33,957 nt of DNA from Oscillospiraceae bacterium. GTDB lineage: Bacteria > Bacillota > Clostridia > Oscillospirales > Oscillospiraceae. The position numbers and the translations under genes are program-made. The stretch is from positions 1-33,957 of the forward strand of contig SVKR01000180.1 in the NCBI GenBank assembly GCA_015068365.1. The letters are read 5' to 3'. Below, one piece after another: positions 19,263 to 33,613 of this stretch (position 1 is the stretch's first letter; each line of letters opens with the position of its first letter). The notes beneath the pieces were generated by a model. It saw only the letters and a list, made by a program, of their open reading frames with translations. It did no database searches and had not been told where the DNA came from.

Positions 19263-21233
19263 TTGGAGAACTACACCAAGTACAAGCTGAAGGGAATCGA
19301 CGAGCTTGCACAGCAGCTGGAGGGCAAGGACAACTTCTTTGTCATCGCCTGCAACAAGTGCTTCAAGGAATTTGAAGCCGTGGACGAGCCCGACTGTGAG
19401 GACTTCCTGCGCTTCGCCGCAGAAAGCGGGAAGACCATCACCACCAGCATCAAGTTCGATTTCCTCTGCAACAAGACCCAGACACTCCGCAAGCTGAAGG
19501 AATACAACCCCATTCCCGACGACACGGAGAACGTCGTCGTGATCTCCTGCGGTCTGGGCGTCCAGACCATGGCGGACGCGGTGGATCTGCCCGTGATCGC
19601 CGCGGCCAACTCCCTGAACTATACGGGACACCACGGCATGGCGCTGACGAAAAAGGCCTGCGACGCCTGCGCCCAGTGCTATCTGAACGTCACCGGCGGC
19701 ATCTGCCCCATCGTGGACTGCTCCAAGAGCCTGGTCAACGGCCAGTGCGGCGGCGCGAAGAACGGCAAGTGCGAAGTCAGTCCCGACAAGGACTGCGCCT
19801 GGGAGAAGATCAACGCCCGCCTGACGGCCCAGGGCCGCCTGGAGGAGTTCAAGAACCAGCCGGTACAGCTGCGTGACTACAACAAGATCAACTTCAAGGT
19901 CATCAACGACTACGTCCAGTCCATCCGTGAAGCCCGGTTTGACGGCTATTACGGCGGCGTTCACCCGGCCGAGCGCAAGGAGTTTGCCGAGGGCTGCGCC
20001 CTGGCGAAGTTCCCGGAGCCGGACGAGGTGGTCATCCCCATGGGCCAGCACATCGGCGCCCCCGCCAACCCGGTCGTCAAGGCCGGCGACCATGTGAAGG
20101 TCGGCCAGATCATCGGCGAGGCCGCCGGCTTCATCAGCGCCCCGGTGCACTCCAGCGTCAGCGGCACCGTCGTGGCGGTGGAGCCGCGCCTGCACCCCAT
20201 CCAGGGCACCGAGGCCATGGCCGTCGTCATCAGGAACGACAAGAAAAACGAGCTGGCTGACACCGTGAAGCCCCACGGCGATCTGGCCGGCCTCAACGCG
20301 GACGACATCATCAACATCGTGCGCGATGCCGGCATCGTCGGCATGGGCGGCGCCGGCTTCCCCACCTATGTCAAGCTGAAGCCCGGCAAGCCCATCGACG
20401 CCGTGCTCATCAACGCCTGCGAATGCGAGCCGCTGCTCACCGCGGACCACCGTGTCCTGCTGGAGCAGGCGGACGAGGTCATCTTCGGCCTGCAGGCCAT
20501 CCTCAAGGCGGTGGACGCCCCCAAGGGCTACATCGTCATCGAGGACAACAAGCCCGACGCCATCGAGCTGATGACCGCCAAAACCGAGGGTCTTGAGAAC
20601 ATCGAGGTGGTCACCGCCCGCACCAAGTACCCCCAGGGCGCTGAAAAGATGCTCATCAAGCGCGTGCTGGGCCGCAAGGTCCCCTCCGGCGGACTTCCGG
20701 CGGATGTCGGCGCCGTGGTCAGCAACGTCAGCACCGCCAAGGCCATCTGCGACGCCATCCGTACCGGCATGCCCCTCATCGAGCGTGTCGTGACCGTGAC
20801 GGGCGAGCGCATTGCCAAGCCCGGCAACTACATCGTCAAGGTGGGCACCTCCGTCAAGGCCCTCGTGGACTATTGCGGCGGCCTGACCGGCGACGACGTG
20901 ACCGTGAAGCTGGGCGGCCCGATGATGGGCTTTGCGCAGGCGGATCTGAACGTCCCTATTCTCAAGAGCTCCAACGGCGTCATCGCCTTTGACACGGACC
21001 ACACCGAGCCCGTGGCCTGCATCAAGTGCGGCCGCTGCGTGGACGTCTGCCCCATGGAGCTGGCCCCGCTGTACTTCCAGAAGTACGTGGACGACGGCGA
21101 CATCGAGGGCCTCAAGGCCAAGAACATCTTCGACTGCATGGAGTGCGGCTGCTGCGAGTACATCTGCTCGTCCAAGATCCCGCTGGTCAGCAAGATCAAG
21201 GCCGGCAAAAAAGCGGTAAAGGAGGCGAAGTGA
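19263..21233 (+). CDS. Fusion of a MetV-like (methylenetetrahydrofolate reductase C-terminal/Zn-FeS) domain with an RnfC-like NADH dehydrogenase/ferredoxin subunit (RnfC2)
   Basis: TTG start after aaggtgag; N-terminal CDACAQCYLNVTGGICPIVDCSKSLVNGQCGGAKNGKCE (MetV), then biotinyl-like PVHSSVSGTVVAVE, GIVGMGGAGFPTYVKL, CECEPLLTADHR, CIKCGRCVDVCPMEL...CMECGCCEYICSSKIPLV (RnfC). Confidence 0.9.
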   Translation: MENYTKYKLKGIDELAQQLEGKDNFFVIACNKCFKEFEAVDEPDCEDFLRFAAESGKTITTSIKFDFLCNKTQTLRKLKEYNPIPDDTENVVVISCGLGVQTMADAVDLPVIAAANSLNYTGHHGMALTKKACDACAQCYLNVTGGICPIVDCSKSLVNGQCGGAKNGKCEVSPDKDCAWEKINARLTAQGRLEEFKNQPVQLRDYNKINFKVINDYVQSIREARFDGYYGGVHPAERKEFAEGCALAKFPEPDEVVIPMGQHIGAPANPVVKAGDHVKVGQIIGEAAGFISAPVHSSVSGTVVAVEPRLHPIQGTEAMAVVIRNDKKNELADTVKPHGDLAGLNADDIINIVRDAGIVGMGGAGFPTYVKLKPGKPIDAVLINACECEPLLTADHRVLLEQADEVIFGLQAILKAVDAPKGYIVIEDNKPDAIELMTAKTEGLENIEVVTARTKYPQGAEKMLIKRVLGRKVPSGGLPADVGAVVSNVSTAKAICDAIRTGMPLIERVVTVTGERIAKPGNYIVKVGTSVKALVDYCGGLTGDDVTVKLGGPMMGFAQADLNVPILKSSNGVIAFDTDHTEPVACIKCGRCVDVCPMELAPLYFQKYVDDGDIEGLKAKNIFDCMECGCCEYICSSKIPLVSKIKAGKKAVKEAK

Positions 21234-21234
21234 G

Positions 21235-21855
21235 ATGCTGATTACCCAACTGAAAGACAGGGAGACCATTGAAGGTCTGATCCAGGGCAAAGCCTTTGTC
21301 ATCAACTGCCACGGCTGCAAGGAGGTCCACTTCCCCGTCAGCGAGGCTGAGGCGCTGCAGAAGGCGCTGGCCGAGGCCGGCAAGCTGACCGGCTGCATCA
21401 CCACGGACTACATCTGCAATGTGGAAAATCTCACCAAGCGCCTGGAAAAGCACGCTTCCGCCATTGCCGCGGCGGAGACCATTCTGGTCTTCTCCTGCGG
21501 TGTGGGCGTGCAGACGGTGGCAGACATGTTCGCCGACAAGCGCGTGTGCGCCTGCTGCGACACGCTGCCCATGCCCGGCTTCCAGGGCGTCACCCCGCTG
21601 GAGTATGACTGCGACCAGTGCGGCGAGTGCTACCTGAACCTGACCGGCGGCATCTGCCCCATCACCGCCTGCTCCAAGAGCCTGGTGAACGGCCAGTGCG
21701 GCGGCGCCAAGAACGGCAAGTGCGAGTGCGACGCCGGCATGGACTGCGGCTGGGAGCGCATTTACCAGCGTCTGAAAATGCTGGGCCGGCTGGACCTCAT
21801 CCAGAGCCCGGTACAGATTCGCAACTTCGCAACCGATCTCGAAGTTTCCAAGTAA
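21235..21855 (+). CDS. metV: Methylenetetrahydrofolate reductase C-terminal/zinc-binding subunit
   Basis: CDQCGECYLNLTGGICPITACSKSLVNGQCGGAKNGKCECDAGMDCGW, directly upstream of metF. Confidence 0.88.
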   Translation: MLITQLKDRETIEGLIQGKAFVINCHGCKEVHFPVSEAEALQKALAEAGKLTGCITTDYICNVENLTKRLEKHASAIAAAETILVFSCGVGVQTVADMFADKRVCACCDTLPMPGFQGVTPLEYDCDQCGECYLNLTGGICPITACSKSLVNGQCGGAKNGKCECDAGMDCGWERIYQRLKMLGRLDLIQSPVQIRNFATDLEVSK

Positions 21856-21887
21856 TCTGATTCTGAAAGGAATAGGAGAATAATAGA

Positions 21888-22766
21888 ATGAAAGTAACTG
21901 ATCTGTTTGCCAAAGGTGAATTTGTCGTCTCCGCCGAGGTCGGCCCCCCGAAGGGCTGCCACATCGAGGGCGTTGTCGAAGAGGCCAAGGAGTTCCTCAG
22001 CGGCATCAATGCCGTAAACGTCACGGACTGCCAGTCCTCCGTCATGCGCATGGGCTCTCTGGCCACCTGCATCAAGCTGAAGGAGGCCGGCCTGACCCCC
22101 ATCTTCCAGATGACCTGCCGTGACCGCAACCGCATCGCGCTGCAGTCCGACCTGCTCAGCGCCGCCGCCTTCGGCATCGAGAACCTGCTGCTGCTCACCG
22201 GCGACCACACCAAGCTGGGCGACCATCCCCAGGCCAAGCCCGTTTTCGACCTGGACAGCGTCTCCCTGATCCACGCCGTCAAGACCCTGGAGAGCGGCTA
22301 CGATCTGGCCGGCAACGAGCTGGTGGGCGAGCCTCCCAAGTTCGCCAAGGGCGCCGTGGTCTCCCCCTGCTCCGACAGCATCGACGCGCAGCTTGCCAAG
22401 ATGGAGCGCAAGGTGCTGGCCGGCGCGGAGTATTTCCAGACCCAGGCCGTCTATGAGCCGGAGAAGTTCATCGCCTTCATGGAAAAGGCCAAGCAGTTCG
22501 GCAAGCCCGTGCAGCTCGGCATCGTCATCCCGAAGAACGCCGGCATGTGCCGCTACATGAACAAGAACGTGGCCGGCATCTCCATCCCCGAGGACATGAT
22601 CAACGAGCTGGCCGCCGACAAGGAGGCCGCCAAGGCCGGCATCACCGGCGTGGCGATCGCTGCGCGCATCATCCGCGCCTGCAAGGACTACTGCCAGGGC
22701 GTCCACATCATGGCCATGGGCTGGGAGTCCAAGGTCCCCGGTCTGCTGGAGCAGGCCGGCCTGTGA
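21888..22766 (+). CDS. metF: Methylenetetrahydrofolate reductase
   Basis: KGEFVVSAEVGPPKG, QMTCRDRNRIALQSDLLSAAAFGIENLLLLTGDH, DLDSVSLI, QTQAVYEPEKFIAFMEKAK: MTHFR TIM barrel. Confidence 0.94.
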   Translation: MKVTDLFAKGEFVVSAEVGPPKGCHIEGVVEEAKEFLSGINAVNVTDCQSSVMRMGSLATCIKLKEAGLTPIFQMTCRDRNRIALQSDLLSAAAFGIENLLLLTGDHTKLGDHPQAKPVFDLDSVSLIHAVKTLESGYDLAGNELVGEPPKFAKGAVVSPCSDSIDAQLAKMERKVLAGAEYFQTQAVYEPEKFIAFMEKAKQFGKPVQLGIVIPKNAGMCRYMNKNVAGISIPEDMINELAADKEAAKAGITGVAIAARIIRACKDYCQGVHIMAMGWESKVPGLLEQAGL

Positions 22767-23528: not shown

Positions 23529-26402
23529 TCACTTCAGCAGCACGTCGGACAGGGTCTCCATCACGTTTTTCATGTTGATGGGCTTGGCGATGTGGCCGTT
23601 CATGCCCGCGGCGCGGGCGGCGGCGATGTCCTCGCTGTAGGCCTTGGCGGTCAGCGCCACGATGGGGATGTCTGCCAGGGCGCTGTTGCGCAGCGAGCGG
23701 ATAAGCCGCGCGGCGCTGTAGCCGTTCTTGATCGGCATTTCGATGTCCATCAGCACGGCGTCATAGTACCCGGGGACGGAGGCGGCGATGCGCTCCACGG
23801 CGTCCTCGCCGTTTTCGGCGGTGTCCACCAGGAAGCCGGCCTCCTCCAGAAGCTGGCGGGCCACATCGCGGTTGTCCGGGTCGTCCTCCACCAGCAGCAG
23901 GCGCATGCCCGCAAAGGCGGACTCCGCGGGCTTTTCGCCGGTCGCGGCGGTGGCGGCGGCCTCCGGGTCGATGGGCAGGGACACGTTGACCACGAACTCC
24001 GAGCCCTTGCCCTTCTCGGAGATGACCTCGATGGTGCCGCCCATCAGTTCCACGATGCTCTTGGTGATGGCGGTGCCGAGGCCGGTGCCCTGGATGTTCT
24101 CCACGGTCTCGGTCTTCTCGCGCTCATAGGCCTCAAAGACCTTGGCGGCAAACTCCGGGCTCATGCCGATGCCCGTGTCCTTCACGCTGAGGCAGTACGC
24201 CGCCCGGTCGTCCTCCCGCCCGGTCTGGCGCAGCGTGACGGTGACGCTGCCGCCCTCGGGCGTGAATTTGTAGGCGTTGCTGATGAGGTTCAGCAGCACA
24301 CGGTTGAGGCGGTTTTTGTCGCAGAGCACCTGCACATCCTCGGCATCGCAGGTGACGGTGTATTGCAGATGCTTCGTCTCCATCTGGGTGGAGAACAGAT
24401 CCTCCACCTCGCCCATCATCCGGCGCAGATCGGTGGGCACGGGCATCAGTTCCATGCGCCCGCTCTCGATGCGGCTCATCTCCAGAACGTCGTTGATGAG
24501 GGCCAGCAGATGGTCGCTGGAGGCCTCAATCTTCCCCAGGTAGTCCCGCACCCGGGGCGTGAGGTCCTTTTCCCGCTTCGCCAGCGTCACATAGCCGATG
24601 ATGGCGTTCATCGGCGTGCGGATGTCGTGGCTCATGTTGGACAGGAAGTTGGTCTTCGCCTGGCTGCTCTGCTGGGCGATGGTCTTGTCCGCCTCCGCGC
24701 TCTGGTGGCGCTTGCGGACGGTGGAATAGATGTGGAAGATGATCAGCAGTGCGATCAGGATCATCACGAACTGGATGATCGTGTTGCGGATGATCATGCT
24801 GGTGACCATTTCAAAGCGCCTTGTCAGCACGTCCGGCGAGCGGGTGCCCGTGAAGCCCAGCTCCCTCACCGCGACGTTGGTCGCGTTGCGGGTGGTGCCC
24901 AAAATCCAGACCATGGATGTGAAGAAAATAAGCAGCAGCAGCACGATCCAGATCGCCGGGCTCTTGCCCATCCGCCCGGCCTTGTCGGCCCGGAAGATCA
25001 GCAGGAAGCACACAAAGCCCAGCACGGCCCAGGACATGAGGATCAGATAGGATTCATTGGACAGCGTGGACACCGGCAGCAGGTTGGGGATCAGGAAATA
25101 GAGCAGAAAGCCCAGGGAAATCAGCGTTCCGGCAGCGCCGGTGACGATCGTGCGGGTGCGCCCCTCCTCCGCGGCCATTTTCAGCGCGGCGGCGGAGGTG
25201 TAGGCATAGGCGATGGTGACGCCGATGGTGTTGACATCCACGATCCAGCCGATGGCCGCGCGCCCCAGGAAGGGAATCGGCAGGGAGACCGCAAGCAAAA
25301 ACCAGATGGCGCAGGCCGGCACGCCGCGGCGGTTCAGCACAGCGACGCGCTTCGGCAGCATATCGCTGCGGCCCATAGCGAAAAGCAGGCGGCTGGCCGC
25401 CGTCATGTTGCCCGCCAGCCCGGTCAAAATCGCGGCGGCGGCCGCCACGCCCAGCACCGCAAGGCCCGGCTTGCCCAGCGCGGTATAGACGCCGTAGAAG
25501 GTGGGCAGCCCCTCCAGCCCGCTGCGCTCCCCCAAAGAGCGGATATAGTCCACCCAGGTATGCGCCCCCGCCGGCAGCGCCGAAACGGCGGTCAGCGCCA
25601 GCAGAATGTAGGCCACGGCGGAGGTGATCAGCGCGATGATGAGGATCAGCAGGATCTTTTTCATCGGAAAACGAAATTCCTCCGCGCTGTTGGAGACGGA
25701 CTCAAAGCCCGCGAAGGCCCACGGGGCCAGGAACACGATGAACAAGATGCCGATGCCGGGTACATGCTCCGGGGAGAAGGGCGGCTCCAGTGCCGCGGCC
25801 GCGCCGGTCTCCTGCCGGAAGAAGGAGGCGAAGAAGGCAAACAGCACCCCGGCGATCAGCAGCAGCGCCATCACCACCTGGGCCGCGGCGGCCACCCTTG
25901 TGCCCTGCAGGCACAGCAGCGTGCACAGCAGCAGCGCCGCGAGCGACAGCAGAATTTCGCCCAGATACACGTCGTATCCCGCGATGGAATAGTGGAAGCC
26001 GAAGCACAGCGCGTCGCCGAAGAGATTGCGGCAGATGAGCGGCAGCGCCGTGGCATTGGCCCAGATGATGGCCAGATAGACCAGGCCCAGAAACCACGAG
26101 GCCAGAAAGCCGTGGTCATAGCCGAAGGCCTTGGAGGCATACTGGAAGGTGCCGCCGGCGTCGGGGCAGCGATTCATCAAATAGGTGTAATTGACGCCGA
26201 TAAGCAGCATCACCGCCGCGCCGATGACGATGCCCAGCGCGGTGCCGACAGGCCCGGCGATGGGCAGGAAGGTGGTGCCGGGCATGACGAACGCGCCCCA
26301 GCCCACGCTGCAGCCGAAGGACAGCGCCCAGGCCGACAGCGGCGTCAGCGCCCTGCGCAGGCGCATGGCGCCCTCCGCGCTGCCTGCTTGCCCTTTTGTC
26401 AT
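23529..26402 (-). CDS. Amino-acid permease (APC superfamily) fused to histidine kinase (HisKA-HATPase) and receiver domain
   Basis: N-terminal GWGAFVMPGTTFLPIAGPVG..., about 14 TM; NFLSNMSHDIRTPMNAIIGYV (H-box), N box NLISNAYKFTPEGG, DTGIGMSPE, GTGLGTAI; C-terminal REC with YYDAVLMDIEMPIKNGYSAARLIR...ALTAKA. ATG 26402 overlaps the upstream stop (ATGA). Confidence 0.93.
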   Translation of the reverse strand: MTKGQAGSAEGAMRLRRALTPLSAWALSFGCSVGWGAFVMPGTTFLPIAGPVGTALGIVIGAAVMLLIGVNYTYLMNRCPDAGGTFQYASKAFGYDHGFLASWFLGLVYLAIIWANATALPLICRNLFGDALCFGFHYSIAGYDVYLGEILLSLAALLLCTLLCLQGTRVAAAAQVVMALLLIAGVLFAFFASFFRQETGAAAALEPPFSPEHVPGIGILFIVFLAPWAFAGFESVSNSAEEFRFPMKKILLILIIALITSAVAYILLALTAVSALPAGAHTWVDYIRSLGERSGLEGLPTFYGVYTALGKPGLAVLGVAAAAAILTGLAGNMTAASRLLFAMGRSDMLPKRVAVLNRRGVPACAIWFLLAVSLPIPFLGRAAIGWIVDVNTIGVTIAYAYTSAAALKMAAEEGRTRTIVTGAAGTLISLGFLLYFLIPNLLPVSTLSNESYLILMSWAVLGFVCFLLIFRADKAGRMGKSPAIWIVLLLLIFFTSMVWILGTTRNATNVAVRELGFTGTRSPDVLTRRFEMVTSMIIRNTIIQFVMILIALLIIFHIYSTVRKRHQSAEADKTIAQQSSQAKTNFLSNMSHDIRTPMNAIIGYVTLAKREKDLTPRVRDYLGKIEASSDHLLALINDVLEMSRIESGRMELMPVPTDLRRMMGEVEDLFSTQMETKHLQYTVTCDAEDVQVLCDKNRLNRVLLNLISNAYKFTPEGGSVTVTLRQTGREDDRAAYCLSVKDTGIGMSPEFAAKVFEAYEREKTETVENIQGTGLGTAITKSIVELMGGTIEVISEKGKGSEFVVNVSLPIDPEAAATAATGEKPAESAFAGMRLLLVEDDPDNRDVARQLLEEAGFLVDTAENGEDAVERIAASVPGYYDAVLMDIEMPIKNGYSAARLIRSLRNSALADIPIVALTAKAYSEDIAAARAAGMNGHIAKPINMKNVMETLSDVLLK

Positions 26403-28012
26403 TGCGCGCATCCCCCTTCCGTATCATTCTGCCGGCCCGGCAGCTTTTCCGCAAAGGCGCGGATGGCGCCGGGGTCGATGGGCTTGGCCGTGTGGCCGTC
26501 CATCCCGGCGGCGATGGCGGCGGCGGCGTCCTCCGGGTCGGTGTTGGCGGTCACGGCAAGGATGGGCGTCCTCGCCCGCGCGTCCGGCAGGGCGCGGATG
26601 GCCGCCGTGGCCTCATAGCCGTTCATCACCGGCATCTGCACGTCCATCAGGATCAGATCGTAAGTCCCCGCAGGGGCGTTTTTCACTTTTTCCACGGCCT
26701 CGCCGCCGTCGGCGGCCTGCTCCACGCTCCAGCCCTCGGCCGTCAGCATCAGCTCGCCGATCTCCCGGTTGATGGCGTTGTCGTCCACCAGCAGGACGTT
26801 CAGCGCCAGCGCCGACGCTTCCGGCTCCGGCGCGGGGGCAGGGACTGCTTCCTCCGGTTCCGGCACGGGCGCGGGCGCAGGTGCGGGGGCCTCCTCCGCC
26901 TTCGGCTCCGCCAGGGCGGCATGCTGCTGGAGGTGGGTGGTGTCCGCCAGCAGCATCACATAGAATTTTGCGTTGCGGTCAATGCGATAGAACAAGATCC
27001 GCTTCCAGAGGATCTCGCCGTCGATGTAGAAAGGGGCGTTGACCTCATAGACCTCTTTTTCCTCCAGCGCCCGGTCCACGACGGAAAGGCGCAGCGGGTT
27101 CGGCCCCTCGGGCATGGCGCCGCCCCGGGCCATGGCAGGCAGGATGTAGTCCAGGTACAGAGCTTCATAGCTGTCGCCCGCGTCGTCGGGCAGCAGGAGC
27201 CCTGCTTTGCCGCTGTTGCTGATGAGCCCGCAGTACTTGCCATCCACCAGATAGGCGATGCGGTCATACTGGTCCATCAGTACGCGCTCCAGCAGCGTCT
27301 TGCGCACGATCGAAATGTTGTAAGGCCGCTCGGTGAGAAAGGCGATCACGTCGCCGGTGACGGGCATCTTGGTCAGCGTCACCTCCACGCGGACGAAAGC
27401 GGCCTCGCCGTTTTTCTGCCGCACCAGCAGGACCTCCGAAACGCTGGTCTGCCCCTCCTGGTAGATGCGCAGCAGCTCTTCCCGGCGCATGATGCTGTGT
27501 TCCGCCCCGCGGTAGGAGGCGTCCAGAACCTGCTTGCTCCGGGCCTGCATCAGCTCGGTATAGCTGTCGCAGGTCAGGTCGCTGTCATACAGATTGGCGC
27601 CTGCCCGCTCCTCCACCTCGTCGCGGGTCAGGTTGACGAGGAACACCGCCAGGGAATCCTTGGTCAGCGCCGCGAGCTGGTCCCGCATCTCGTCATAGCG
27701 CAGGGACAGCACCTTGTCCGTCTCCCGGATGCGCTTCACAATGGTGAACATGACCAGCAGCAGCAGGAAGACGAAAATACTGCCGCCGAAGAGGATGGCG
27801 GCGATGACCAGGTTGGCGATGCCGGTGAAGCCCACGACCAGATAGCCCACCAGGAAGAACACGAGCAGCAGCAGCGGCACGATCAGCAGACCGGTGCCGC
27901 GGGTGCGGTGCGTCAGATCGCCGCTGTCCTTGACGAACATGCCGTAGCGGATAATGTTATAAATCATCAGCGCGCTGCCCAGGAATACCATGCTGTTGAT
28001 TATGAACCGCAA
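26399..28012 (-). CDS. Membrane protein with PAS-like sensor region and C-terminal receiver domain (no kinase domain)
   Basis: TTG start with strong RBS aaggaggg; four predicted TM; PAPAPAPVPEPEEAVPAPAPEPE linker; REC LNVLLVDDNAINREIGELML...YDLILMDVQMPVMNGYEATAAIR...AVTAN. Confidence 0.88.
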   Translation of the reverse strand: MRFIINSMVFLGSALMIYNIIRYGMFVKDSGDLTHRTRGTGLLIVPLLLLVFFLVGYLVVGFTGIANLVIAAILFGGSIFVFLLLLVMFTIVKRIRETDKVLSLRYDEMRDQLAALTKDSLAVFLVNLTRDEVEERAGANLYDSDLTCDSYTELMQARSKQVLDASYRGAEHSIMRREELLRIYQEGQTSVSEVLLVRQKNGEAAFVRVEVTLTKMPVTGDVIAFLTERPYNISIVRKTLLERVLMDQYDRIAYLVDGKYCGLISNSGKAGLLLPDDAGDSYEALYLDYILPAMARGGAMPEGPNPLRLSVVDRALEEKEVYEVNAPFYIDGEILWKRILFYRIDRNAKFYVMLLADTTHLQQHAALAEPKAEEAPAPAPAPVPEPEEAVPAPAPEPEASALALNVLLVDDNAINREIGELMLTAEGWSVEQAADGGEAVEKVKNAPAGTYDLILMDVQMPVMNGYEATAAIRALPDARARTPILAVTANTDPEDAAAAIAAGMDGHTAKPIDPGAIRAFAEKLPGRQNDTEGGCAQ

Positions 28013-28127: not shown

Positions 28128-29081
28128 TCATTGCAGGGGCGCTCCGCCCGGCATCGTGCCCGCCGGGGGCTGGGGCGAAGCGGAAAACGGCGGAATCGGC
28201 CCGCCGCCCTCTCCCCCGCCCGGCGCCGGGGAAACGCACTCCGGGCGCTCCGGCGGCATCGGCGCATCCGCCGGCGGGGCGAAGCGCTCCTCCGGCAGCG
28301 GGTCTGCCTCGGGCGGGGCGGGCATCGCCGGGACTTCGGGCGGGATTGCTGGCATGTCCGGCACATCCTCCCCCTCCGGCGGCGCGGGTGCGTCCTCCGG
28401 CGGAACTGGTGCGTCCTCCGGCGGAACCGGCACGTCCTCCGGCGTCACAGGCGCGTCTGCCGCCCGCTCCGGCACAGGGAGCGCGCGCTCCTCCGCCGGC
28501 GCTGCTTCGCCGCCGGGCAACGGCTCCGCCGCGCCCGTCTCCGCCACGGCGGGGACCCCCGCGGCGCGCTCCACCGTCTCGGCCAGCGTCTGCTCCAGGC
28601 TCTGCGCGTGGGCGGCGCTGATCGTGCCCGCCGTGATGCGCACCGGCGTTTCCCCGCTCGTCAGCGCGCCGCTGCGCTCCAGGTGGGCGGCGGTGGCGGC
28701 CACGGCGGCGCTGATCTTGCGGTGGCGCAGCTTGGTCATGTCCATGCCCGACAGAGCCCTGGCCCCCTCGCTGTCCACTGGGCGGACATCCAGCACATAG
28801 TCAAAGCAGTTGATGGTGTATTCCACAGAGGTCTGCCCGTCCAGGCTCACCGTGCCGCAGGGCAGCGCGTATGCGGTGCCGACGCCCAGGGCGGCCACTG
28901 TCGCCGCTGCCGCCGCGATGGCGGCGATGCGCCGCAGCGTGCTCCCGGTGTGCCGGGCCGGACGGTGCAGCTCCACGCGCTGGCCCAGCTCGTAGGCGGC
29001 ATCCGGGATGCGGACAATGGCGCCGTCGTCGCACAGCACGGCGGCATGGCCGTCCTTCCGATCCACAACGATGCCATTCAT
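28128..29081 (-). CDS. RsgI-like transmembrane anti-sigma factor with proline-rich C-terminus
   Basis: N-terminal MNGIVVDRKDGHAAVLCDDGAIVRIPDAAYELGQRV (RsgI_N type), one TM, TVSLDGQTSVEYTINCFDYVLDVRPVDSEGARAL; ATGA overlap with the sigI-like gene. Confidence 0.83.
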   Translation of the reverse strand: MNGIVVDRKDGHAAVLCDDGAIVRIPDAAYELGQRVELHRPARHTGSTLRRIAAIAAAAATVAALGVGTAYALPCGTVSLDGQTSVEYTINCFDYVLDVRPVDSEGARALSGMDMTKLRHRKISAAVAATAAHLERSGALTSGETPVRITAGTISAAHAQSLEQTLAETVERAAGVPAVAETGAAEPLPGGEAAPAEERALPVPERAADAPVTPEDVPVPPEDAPVPPEDAPAPPEGEDVPDMPAIPPEVPAMPAPPEADPLPEERFAPPADAPMPPERPECVSPAPGGGEGGGPIPPFSASPQPPAGTMPGGAPLQ

Positions 29082-29797
29082 GTCCGCTCCTCCTTCATAT
29101 CGTTCAGATACCGCGCGATCAGCGGAAAGTCCCCGTCCAGGATCAGCGCCGCCATGATGAGATAGTTCCGATAGCGGTCCAGCGTCTTTCTGGAAACGCC
29201 GCTGCCCGCCGTGATGGCGCGGATGGGCAGCTTTTTCTCGCGCTTTAAGCGCGCCATCGCCTCCGGATTGGCCAGAAGCCAGCGGACGGCGCAGGCACAG
29301 TCGGCCTTCGTCCGCGCCTGGGCCGGTGCGCGCCCGGCCAGGTCATAAAAGCGGAAGCCATAGCCTTGCAGCAGCTCGTTGGCCGCCTCGATCTCCTCCC
29401 GGGCGCTGCGGTCCTCCGCCGCCTGGCTCTGGCGCACCACCGCCAGATAGGCCCCCTCCGGGTCCTCCTCGGGCGTGCCCTCCCCGGCCAGCACATGGGG
29501 CGGCACGGGCACCTCCGATCCGCTGTGCCGCAGGGTGCGGAAGTGATCGACCAGGGCGCGGCGGATCAGCATCTGGGCAAAGGGGAGAAAGTCCCCCCTA
29601 TCTTCCCGGTAAACGTCCACGGCGCGGGAAAAGGCCTCCAGCGCCACGGACCACTCATCGTCGCTTTTGCTCACATAACGGCGGCAGACGCGGCTGGCCG
29701 TGCGCAGGATGAGCTGTTCGTTGCCTTCGATCAGTTCCTCCCGCACGCGCACGTTCCCGGCTGCGGTACACGCCAGTTGGTTGACGGACGCGGTCAT
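29078..29797 (-). CDS. sigI: SigI-family RNA polymerase sigma factor
   Basis: GNEQLILRTASRVCRRYVSKSDDEWSVALEAFSRAVDVYREDRGDFLPFAQMLIRRALVDHFRTLRHSG resembles SigI region 2; HTH near ITAGSGVSRKTLDRYRNYLIMAALIL...YLN. ORF extends to GTG 29809; ATG 29797 preferred. Confidence 0.85.
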   Translation of the reverse strand: MTASVNQLACTAAGNVRVREELIEGNEQLILRTASRVCRRYVSKSDDEWSVALEAFSRAVDVYREDRGDFLPFAQMLIRRALVDHFRTLRHSGSEVPVPPHVLAGEGTPEEDPEGAYLAVVRQSQAAEDRSAREEIEAANELLQGYGFRFYDLAGRAPAQARTKADCACAVRWLLANPEAMARLKREKKLPIRAITAGSGVSRKTLDRYRNYLIMAALILDGDFPLIARYLNDMKEERT

Positions 29798-29820
29798 CGT
29801 TCTCACCACTCATTCATTTA

Positions 29821-31870: not shown

Positions 31871-33613
31871 CTATATATGTATCGTCAGCACATTGAGGCC
31901 CAGAATACTCTGATATTCCACCTTTTCCGCCATGCGGAACACCATGCGGATGCCCAGGTTTGCGGTGGGGTCGGTCTCTGCGGCGATGCGCGCTCGCTCC
32001 TCCGGGTCAAAGGGCACGCAGTCATCCCGCACGCGCAGGATCACCTTTTGCCTCCGGCACACCACGCGCACGTCCACGCTGTGGCGCCGGCGGTCCTTGC
32101 CGAAGCCGTGGGCCACCACATTGCCCGCCATCTCCTCCAGGAAGAGCGCGGAGAGCAGCGCCCGGCGCCCGTCCACGCCGCATTCCCGGCAAAATTCCTG
32201 CACCTGCCCGGAGATGGTACAGACCTCTTCCAGGCTGCGCACGCTCAGGTCCATCCGCTCATCCGGCAGCGCGCCGAAGTCCCGCGGCAGGACCAAAAGC
32301 GCCTCCATGCTGCGGGGAAATGCCCCGCCACGCCGCCAGGCATCGGCGAGGATGACTGCGATGGTGGTCACGCCGTTGAGCACATTGGCGACATACAGCC
32401 CCGTCGTCCCGATGGCGGGGATCAGCAGCGCGCTGAAGGCCGACACGCACACCACGCCGTCCAGCAGGGAGAGCAGATGCACCAGCTTGTGCCGATCCAG
32501 CGTCTGCCCGCAGCAGACCACATGCATCGCCGGCACGCTGAGGGGCATGCAGAACGGCAGGATGCGAAAGCCCCACCGCGTCATGGCATAGACGCTCGCG
32601 GCGCTGTCGCGGCAGTAAAGCCGGGTCAGCGGGTCGGCCAGCGCCGACAGCACCAGTGCCATCAGCAGCACCATCGGCACATAGCGCCGCAGCATCACGC
32701 GCATGATGTCGGTCAGGCTCTGGCGGTCCTCCTCCCCGACGCTGACGCCGATGAGCATCCGGGACACGGCCAGCATCCCGTTGGGGACGGCCCAGAACAG
32801 GCCGAGGAAGGAGTTGCACGCGGCAAAGGCGCTCAGCCCCGCGCTGCCCACGAATTGCACCAGCAGGGCATTGACGATATAGCCCCGCAGGGTCTGATAG
32901 CCGTTTCCGGCGGCGCCGGGCAGGCCGATCTTGCAGACCTTGCCCAGCTCGCTCCAGTCGCAGGCGCGCAGGGAAAAGCGCAGCACCGCCCTCCGGCTCA
33001 GGAAATAGCCGGCCTCTACGGCGAAGAACACCCACTCGGCCAGCGAACCGGCCAGCGCCAGGCCGAAGGAGCCCATCTGCAGCCGGGAGACGAACAGATA
33101 CGTCAGCGCAGCGTTGGCCGCGATAAAGGTCACCCCCGCGGCGTTGACCCGGCGGGTCTGGTTTTCCAGGGACAGAAAGGACGCCAGCTGGCTGCCCAGA
33201 AGCATGGGGAACACGCCGATGGACTGTCCCAGCAGATAGCGGTTGAAGTGGGCGCGGACCGCCGGGTCCTTCGTAAAGCCCGCGGTCAGATCCAGCGCGC
33301 CCAGCAGCACCAGCACGGCGATGAACACCGCCGCGACCATGGCCGCCACAAGCAGATCCAGGGAAAAAACGCCCTGCATCTTCCCCCGCTCATTCCTGCC
33401 CAGATAGGTGCTGCAGAGGATGGACGCGCCGCCCACCAGAAGAATGCTGACGGCGCTCAGCAGCATGGAAATGGGGCCGTCCAGCCCCACAGCGCCCAGG
33501 GCGGAGGAGCCGATGGCGTTGCTGGCAAACAGGGAAGACACGATGCCGTTCACCGCGCCCAGGGCAGCCAGCAGGATCTGGATGGGGAGCAGGCGGAGCA
33601 TCAGCCGCGCCAC
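31871..33613 (-). CDS. MATE-family multidrug/organic-cation-type transporter fused to a C-terminal RsbW/SpoIIAB-like HATPase domain
   Basis: About 12 TM with MATE-like SLFASNAIGSSALGAVGLDGPISMLLSAVSILLVGGASILCSTYLGR; C-terminal (about 31871-32254) LFLEEMAGNVVAHGF (N box), VRDDCVPFDP, TANLGIRMVFRMAEKVEYQSILGLNVLTIHI. Start GTG 33613 or ATG 33601. Confidence 0.88.
   Translation of the reverse strand: MARLMLRLLPIQILLAALGAVNGIVSSLFASNAIGSSALGAVGLDGPISMLLSAVSILLVGGASILCSTYLGRNERGKMQGVFSLDLLVAAMVAAVFIAVLVLLGALDLTAGFTKDPAVRAHFNRYLLGQSIGVFPMLLGSQLASFLSLENQTRRVNAAGVTFIAANAALTYLFVSRLQMGSFGLALAGSLAEWVFFAVEAGYFLSRRAVLRFSLRACDWSELGKVCKIGLPGAAGNGYQTLRGYIVNALLVQFVGSAGLSAFAACNSFLGLFWAVPNGMLAVSRMLIGVSVGEEDRQSLTDIMRVMLRRYVPMVLLMALVLSALADPLTRLYCRDSAASVYAMTRWGFRILPFCMPLSVPAMHVVCCGQTLDRHKLVHLLSLLDGVVCVSAFSALLIPAIGTTGLYVANVLNGVTTIAVILADAWRRGGAFPRSMEALLVLPRDFGALPDERMDLSVRSLEEVCTISGQVQEFCRECGVDGRRALLSALFLEEMAGNVVAHGFGKDRRRHSVDVRVVCRRQKVILRVRDDCVPFDPEERARIAAETDPTANLGIRMVFRMAEKVEYQSILGLNVLTIHI

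Follow-up and report, generated by a model that had tools for sequence, protein, structure and literature searches.

Transporter-derived receptors have been described as rare in bacteria. Among known proteins, CbrA, CrbS (MxtR), and RpuS are SLC5(SSS)-STAC-histidine kinases, in which a secondary transporter of the LeuT fold lies N-terminal to a histidine kinase; CbrA both binds and transports histidine (PMC13022988, PMC7918813), and the combination of SSS and HisKA was, at first glance, not found in Gram-positive bacteria (PMC7918813). In the ammonium sensor kinase Ks-Amt5, the transporter fold is joined directly to the kinase, with no HAMP, PAS, or STAC domain, and transport has been lost while binding has been kept (PMC5764959). 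The 5TMR and S-component receptors employ a transporter-related membrane fold as a modular receptor with histidine kinase, GGDEF, or EAL domains (PMC11109136), and yeast Ssy1, of the SPS sensor, is an APC-family permease that serves as a non-transporting amino-acid receptor (PMC12958826).

In this study, we analyzed a stretch of 33,957 nucleotides from an Oscillospiraceae bacterium (the window), which encodes an APC permease fused to a hybrid histidine kinase. We consider it probable that this fusion is a sensor ("transceptor-like") hybrid kinase, in which an APC permease fold has been co-opted as a receptor that binds a ligand and relays to c-di-GMP, in the manner of CbrA, Ks-Amt5, or yeast Ssy1. 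A sequence-only reading of this DNA had proposed a transporter-sensor analogous to CbrA with a different membrane module, and that analogy holds: as in the SSS-STAC kinases, a LeuT-fold secondary transporter precedes the kinase. However, the transporter of those kinases is an SSF domain, whereas that of the fusion is AA_permease_2, and at their joint lies a STAC domain, accompanied by PAS in CbrA and MxtR, whereas in the fusion a hairpin of TM13 and TM14 leads straight into HisKA. Pfam gave no SSF match in the fusion, matching AA_permease families instead, and neither Pfam nor the AlphaFold model placed a STAC, PAS, or other domain between TM14 and the DHp domain. Two tested features, the SSF domain and the STAC domain, both exclude the fusion from the SSS-STAC family.

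The remaining systems differ in other ways. Ks-Amt5 shares the direct joint but has the Amt fold, forms a trimer, and senses ammonium, and only one such protein has been described, whereas the APC fusions form a family whose outputs have been swapped. The S-component receptors have the ECF S-component fold, which is unrelated to APC; Ssy1 is eukaryotic and signals via Ptr3 and Ssy5, without a fused catalytic output. The closest sequence relatives of the membrane module are stand-alone APC permeases from that branch (for example, L101, L033, and L104; approximately 470 to 500 amino acids), which have no output domain and carry P, D, P, Q, and F where the receptors carry W, E, S, H, and N. The SSS/STAC kinases, Ks-Amt5, the S-component receptors, and Ssy1 are the nearest described systems, and a family of APC-type receptors with interchangeable outputs is a new variant.

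The fusion gene and its predicted fold

The sequence-only reading had described one uninterrupted open reading frame without giving its strand. The frame is on the minus strand, from the ATG at 26402-26400 to the stop codon at 23531-23529, and is unbroken over 957 codons (Table 1). A purine-rich, ribosome-binding-like stretch (GGAAGGGGG) precedes the start codon, and the GC content of the gene equals that of its surroundings. A plus-strand open reading frame in the same interval was rejected as a spurious high-GC frame.

Table 1. Features of the fusion gene and of the adjoining partner gene in the window
Feature	Position	Strand	Evidence
APC permease/hybrid histidine kinase fusion, 957 aa	23529..26402	-	ORF, Pfam, AlphaFold
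APC permease module: AA_permease_2, residues 19-438, 12-TM fold	25089..26348	-	Pfam, Foldseek to AdiC, profile-to-PDB matches
Permease-kinase joint, residues 483-581: hairpin of TM13 and TM14, helical stalk	24660..24956	-	AlphaFold helices, hydropathy
HisKA; phospho-acceptor His592, codon 24627-24629	24459..24659	-	Pfam, sequence motifs
HATPase_c domain	23976..24320	-	Pfam, sequence motifs
REC domain; phospho-acceptor Asp886 (LMDIEMP)	23550..23897	-	Pfam, sequence motifs
Partner gene, 537 aa: N-terminal TM helices, cytosolic middle region, REC; kinase absent	26399..28012	-	ORF, Pfam
ATGA overlap, shared by the partner stop (TGA) and the fusion start (ATG)	26399..26402	-	sequence

The Pfam search of the protein returned, in order, AA_permease_2 (E = 5.9e-25; positions 1-405 of the 427 in the profile), HisKA (residues 582-648; E = 4e-21), HATPase_c (residues 695-809; E = 3e-26), and Response_reg (residues 836-951; E = 2e-22). 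The sequence contains what defines a hybrid histidine kinase, namely HisKA with its histidine, HATPase N, G1, and G2 boxes, and REC with its aspartate; the codon that had been proposed for the phospho-acceptor histidine is exact, and the HATPase boxes (N-box at 705, DTGIGM at 742, and GTGLG at 772) and the REC motif (LMD at 884-886) are intact. The permease had been placed at about residues 1-540; its assignment to APC stands, but the extent does not, since the core covers residues 15-475 or so and residues 483-563 form two extra TM helices.

The AlphaFold2 model (22 homologues; mean pLDDT, 82) has a 12-helix APC core, a helix at 483-517 (TM13), and a single unbroken helix at 523-609 in which TM14, the stalk, and the first DHp helix are continuous. 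In Foldseek searches, the membrane part of the model matched AdiC (TMt, 0.83), BasC (0.80), GkApcT (0.79), and also y+LAT1, and the soluble part matched GacS, HK853, and RetS; sequence profiles of the APC module alone matched CAT1, GkApcT, xCT, LAT1/2, and AdiC in the PDB. The predicted fold of the membrane module is the LeuT/APC fold. The Pfam domains, the modeled fold, and the existence of fused relatives support the original reading of the gene as an APC permease joined to a hybrid kinase.

The window contains a second transporter-signalling fusion, at 31871-33613 on the minus strand, in which a 580-amino-acid MATE transporter carries a C-terminal HATPase_c_2 domain of the RsbW/SpoIIE type. 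Two full-length paralogues are present in the same genome (contigs C117 and C165), and no such fusion was found in 80 other genomes of the family at 1e-40. On the plus strand, at 19263-22766, an RnfC/NuoF-like protein that bears a fused MTHFR C-terminal domain is followed by a second MTHFR C-terminal-domain protein and by MTHFR; these genes look like a MetVF-RnfC2-type cluster.

The permease pocket and the question of transport

The sequence-only reading had raised the possibility that the permease part is degenerate. Taking the AdiC substrate-site positions, with letters verified against the PDB, as the pocket, we found that the pocket columns of the fused set are far more conserved than average (0.78 versus 1.70 bits), with 1 in 10,000 random draws as low; the same columns are likewise far more conserved than average in the stand-alone permeases. 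Because the pocket is unusually conserved, a degenerate permease is ruled out. Receptors and stand-alone permeases each have their own fixed residue in six columns (W/P at 114, E/D at 234, S/P at 237, H/Q at 238, N/F at 332, and V/M at 390), which map to AdiC W98, E208, S211, V212, W293, and V356, respectively; at column 238, the window fusion has N where the receptor family has H. The position of AdiC Ser26 in TM1 is occupied by Trp in nearly all fused and stand-alone modules. Given its conservation and the receptor-specific columns, the pocket has therefore been maintained but re-specified, a pattern that supports ligand binding and does not decide transport. A lysine in TM5, as in ApcT and BasC, was rejected as a marker of lost coupling; it is uninformative because the stand-alone relatives and AdiC also lack it.

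It can be envisioned that the fusion is a true bifunctional transporter-kinase, whose APC module imports a substrate while the kinase reports the flux, as has been proposed for CbrA. The charged pocket and membrane residues E149, R338, R381, and D389 are conserved and common to receptors and stand-alone permeases, and histidine transport by CbrA is a precedent (PMC13022988, PMC7918813). However, the receptor-specific substitutions lie at gate and pocket positions, Ks-Amt5 lost transport when it was repurposed (PMC5764959), and Ssy1 has no detectable transport (PMC12958826); we therefore regard flux reporting by an active transporter as rather unlikely.

For a ligand-binding receptor, the neighbors of the stand-alone relatives give a weak lean towards amines or amino acids as the ligand, since they are mixed: class-III aminotransferases, tyramine-oxidase-subunit-B-like proteins, MurT/GatD, HTH-nucleotidyltransferase, and purA/purB. 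At L182, L183, and L184, stand-alone APC relatives adjoin an HTH-nucleotidyltransferase gene (perhaps LicC-like), which may point to a substrate of the choline or amine type.

Outputs, neighborhoods, and distribution of the receptor family

Judged by its domains and trees, the window fusion belongs to a family of APC-type receptors whose outputs can be exchanged and comprise two kinase types, GGDEF, GGDEF plus EAL, and HD-GYP. Pfam found AA_permease_2 in all 51 full-length relatives, together with HATPase_c in 32, HisKA in 31, REC in 31, GGDEF in 17, HD in 2 (the HD-GYP motif was read in the sequence), EAL in 1, and PAS_4 in 1. The genome of the window itself encodes two paralogues, with APC modules that are 42% identical, that have GGDEF in place of the kinase. 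In the APC-module tree, a 100/100 branch parts all 53 fused modules from 27 stand-alone permeases, and the GGDEF members form one clade, including the two HD-GYP members, nested among the kinases. In the kinase-region tree (SH-aLRT only), the HK-REC-REC group clusters with non-APC hybrid kinases; this tree calls for a second kinase type on the same APC module, and the kinase itself was therefore replaced one or more times while that module was conserved. We consider the family new because SSS-STAC membership fails and because no named NCBIfam family fits the full architecture among the matches listed (for the fusion, the best 25 of 147): none for the APC module reaches its cut-off, and all lie far below their curated cut-offs except the generic GGDEF domain model in the paralogues. 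Furthermore, no description of APC-HK or APC-GGDEF fusions was found in the open-access literature.

Two loci carry receptors in tandem. At L072 (2336-12350), three APC receptors, with GGDEF, GGDEF-REC-GGDEF-EAL (1,445 amino acids), and HK-REC-REC outputs, lie just downstream of an HPt gene and another REC-GGDEF-EAL gene. At L161 (396-5382), two APC receptors have eroded kinases (THDIG and AHDIR versus SHDIR, with altered ATPase boxes) and are possibly a receptor pair without kinase activity.

Neighboring genes were called from open frames plus Pfam. An HPt gene (122 to 135 amino acids) lies directly upstream of the second type of kinase receptor in 7 of 8 loci and is itself usually preceded by genes for REC-GGDEF-EAL and a membrane hybrid kinase. 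REC-GGDEF-EAL occurs near a minority of the receptor loci (13 of 51), the genome of the window included, where it lies 40 bases from an APC-GGDEF gene on contig C155; this genome also encodes six EAL proteins and one detected HPt, on contig C99. The neighborhood of the window fusion contains neither an HPt nor a REC-GGDEF-EAL gene, and its link to c-di-GMP is therefore drawn by homology and through the paralogous locus.

Open frames and Pfam around the window copy also bear out the earlier remark that no DNA-binding output regulator is adjacent. This would be explained if, as we propose, the phosphorelay goes to c-di-GMP enzymes, and the HPt and REC-GGDEF-EAL genes of the relatives point to a relay of that type rather than to transcription. 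Alternatively, a DNA-binding response regulator encoded far from the fusion might give a transcriptional output, and c-di-GMP would then be incidental; the canonical output of CbrA is transcriptional (PMC7918813), and the window copy has no output regulator beside it. Set against this are the relatives' neighbors and the GGDEF, EAL, and HD-GYP swaps on the APC module, and we judge a transcriptional output unlikely.

A further explanation is that the APC part has no small-molecule ligand and is just a membrane anchor for the kinase, or a sensor of membrane state or voltage. The Trp that replaces AdiC Ser26 could occupy the carboxylate subsite, and the stimuli of the SSS kinases have long been unclear (PMC7918813). 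Strong purifying selection is, however, centered on the pocket, and one permease fold has been retained through several output swaps, which makes a ligand-free module quite improbable.

A search of 301 genomes from the same family yielded full-length fusions with open frames of 925 to 1,161 amino acids and identities of up to 70%. With a profile of the APC module (A3), applied to sampled genomes that are mostly draft or metagenome assembled, about 20 carriers of a fused receptor were counted within the family. Outside it, the order contributed 10 genomes from five other families, the rest of the class six genomes from additional families, and the remainder of the phylum one, which makes about 37 sampled genomes in at least 11 families. 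Carriers include the rumen MAGs RGIG3470, RGIG3566, and RUG087; both same-genus genomes lack the fused receptor at the profile cut-off, and the distribution is patchy. Full-length orthologues with 53 to 70% identity in independent genomes show that the fusion is not due to chance. Although the host assembly is a draft (189 contigs; 86% complete), a mis-assembled chimera or a recent dead fusion can be dismissed as having a negligible chance, since close relatives encode the same fusion rather than separate domains, the same junction recurs in uninterrupted frames in dozens of genomes (43 to 70% identity), and the GC content matches that of the surroundings.

The partner gene and a proposed phosphorelay

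The fusion is preceded by a partner gene, which the sequence-only reading had overlooked, and the ATGA overlap makes translational coupling of the two likely. The middle region of the partner is PAS-like at low confidence, its AlphaFold model (pLDDT, 56) being too poor for assignment; in its REC domain, D457, T488, and K510 are invariant among relatives. Relatives at the same place have a partner whose HisKA-HATPase unit is in visible decay: in L011 and L088 the His is kept and the Asp of the DxG box is lost, in L089 the His has become Arg, and in the window and L009 the kinase is wholly gone. That the partner has kept its REC domain after losing the kinase, and is translated immediately ahead of the fusion, points to the APC kinase as the probable phosphodonor of the partner REC. 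Directly upstream of the partner gene, at 28128-29809 on the minus strand, are genes for a Sigma-70 region 2 factor (SigI-like) and, following it, an RsgI-like anti-sigma protein whose tail is proline-rich.

We postulate that the LeuT-fold core would shift when a small ligand of the amine or amino-acid type binds or when the permease cycles, and that the TM13-TM14 hairpin and the continuous helix would relay this shift to the HisKA dimer, setting the autophosphorylation of His592; the signal would thus run from membrane to kinase. Phosphate may then pass from His592 to the REC domain of the fusion and probably also to that of the co-translated, kinase-less membrane partner, and from there to the single detected HPt of the genome and on to REC-type regulators. 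The most likely targets in this organism would be c-di-GMP enzymes of the REC-GGDEF-EAL type; sister receptors built on the same APC module would drive GGDEF directly. More tentatively, and with a chance that we put somewhat short of even, these proteins may form an undescribed bacterial receptor superfamily, in which a mainly non-transporting APC permease is a universal plug-in sensor for c-di-GMP, both directly (GGDEF, EAL, and HD-GYP) and via HK-HPt-REC-GGDEF-EAL phosphorelays, with kinase-dead membrane co-receptors, the partner protein of the window among them, feeding the same relay.

To our knowledge, the input signals of c-di-GMP in gut and rumen Clostridia are mostly unknown. The APC receptor family, with its several outputs, its stand-alone relatives, and its spread over at least 11 taxonomic families, makes the conversion of a transporter into a receptor testable by exchange of a few named residues, and it suggests a way in which these bacteria could detect free amino acids or amines and adjust c-di-GMP.
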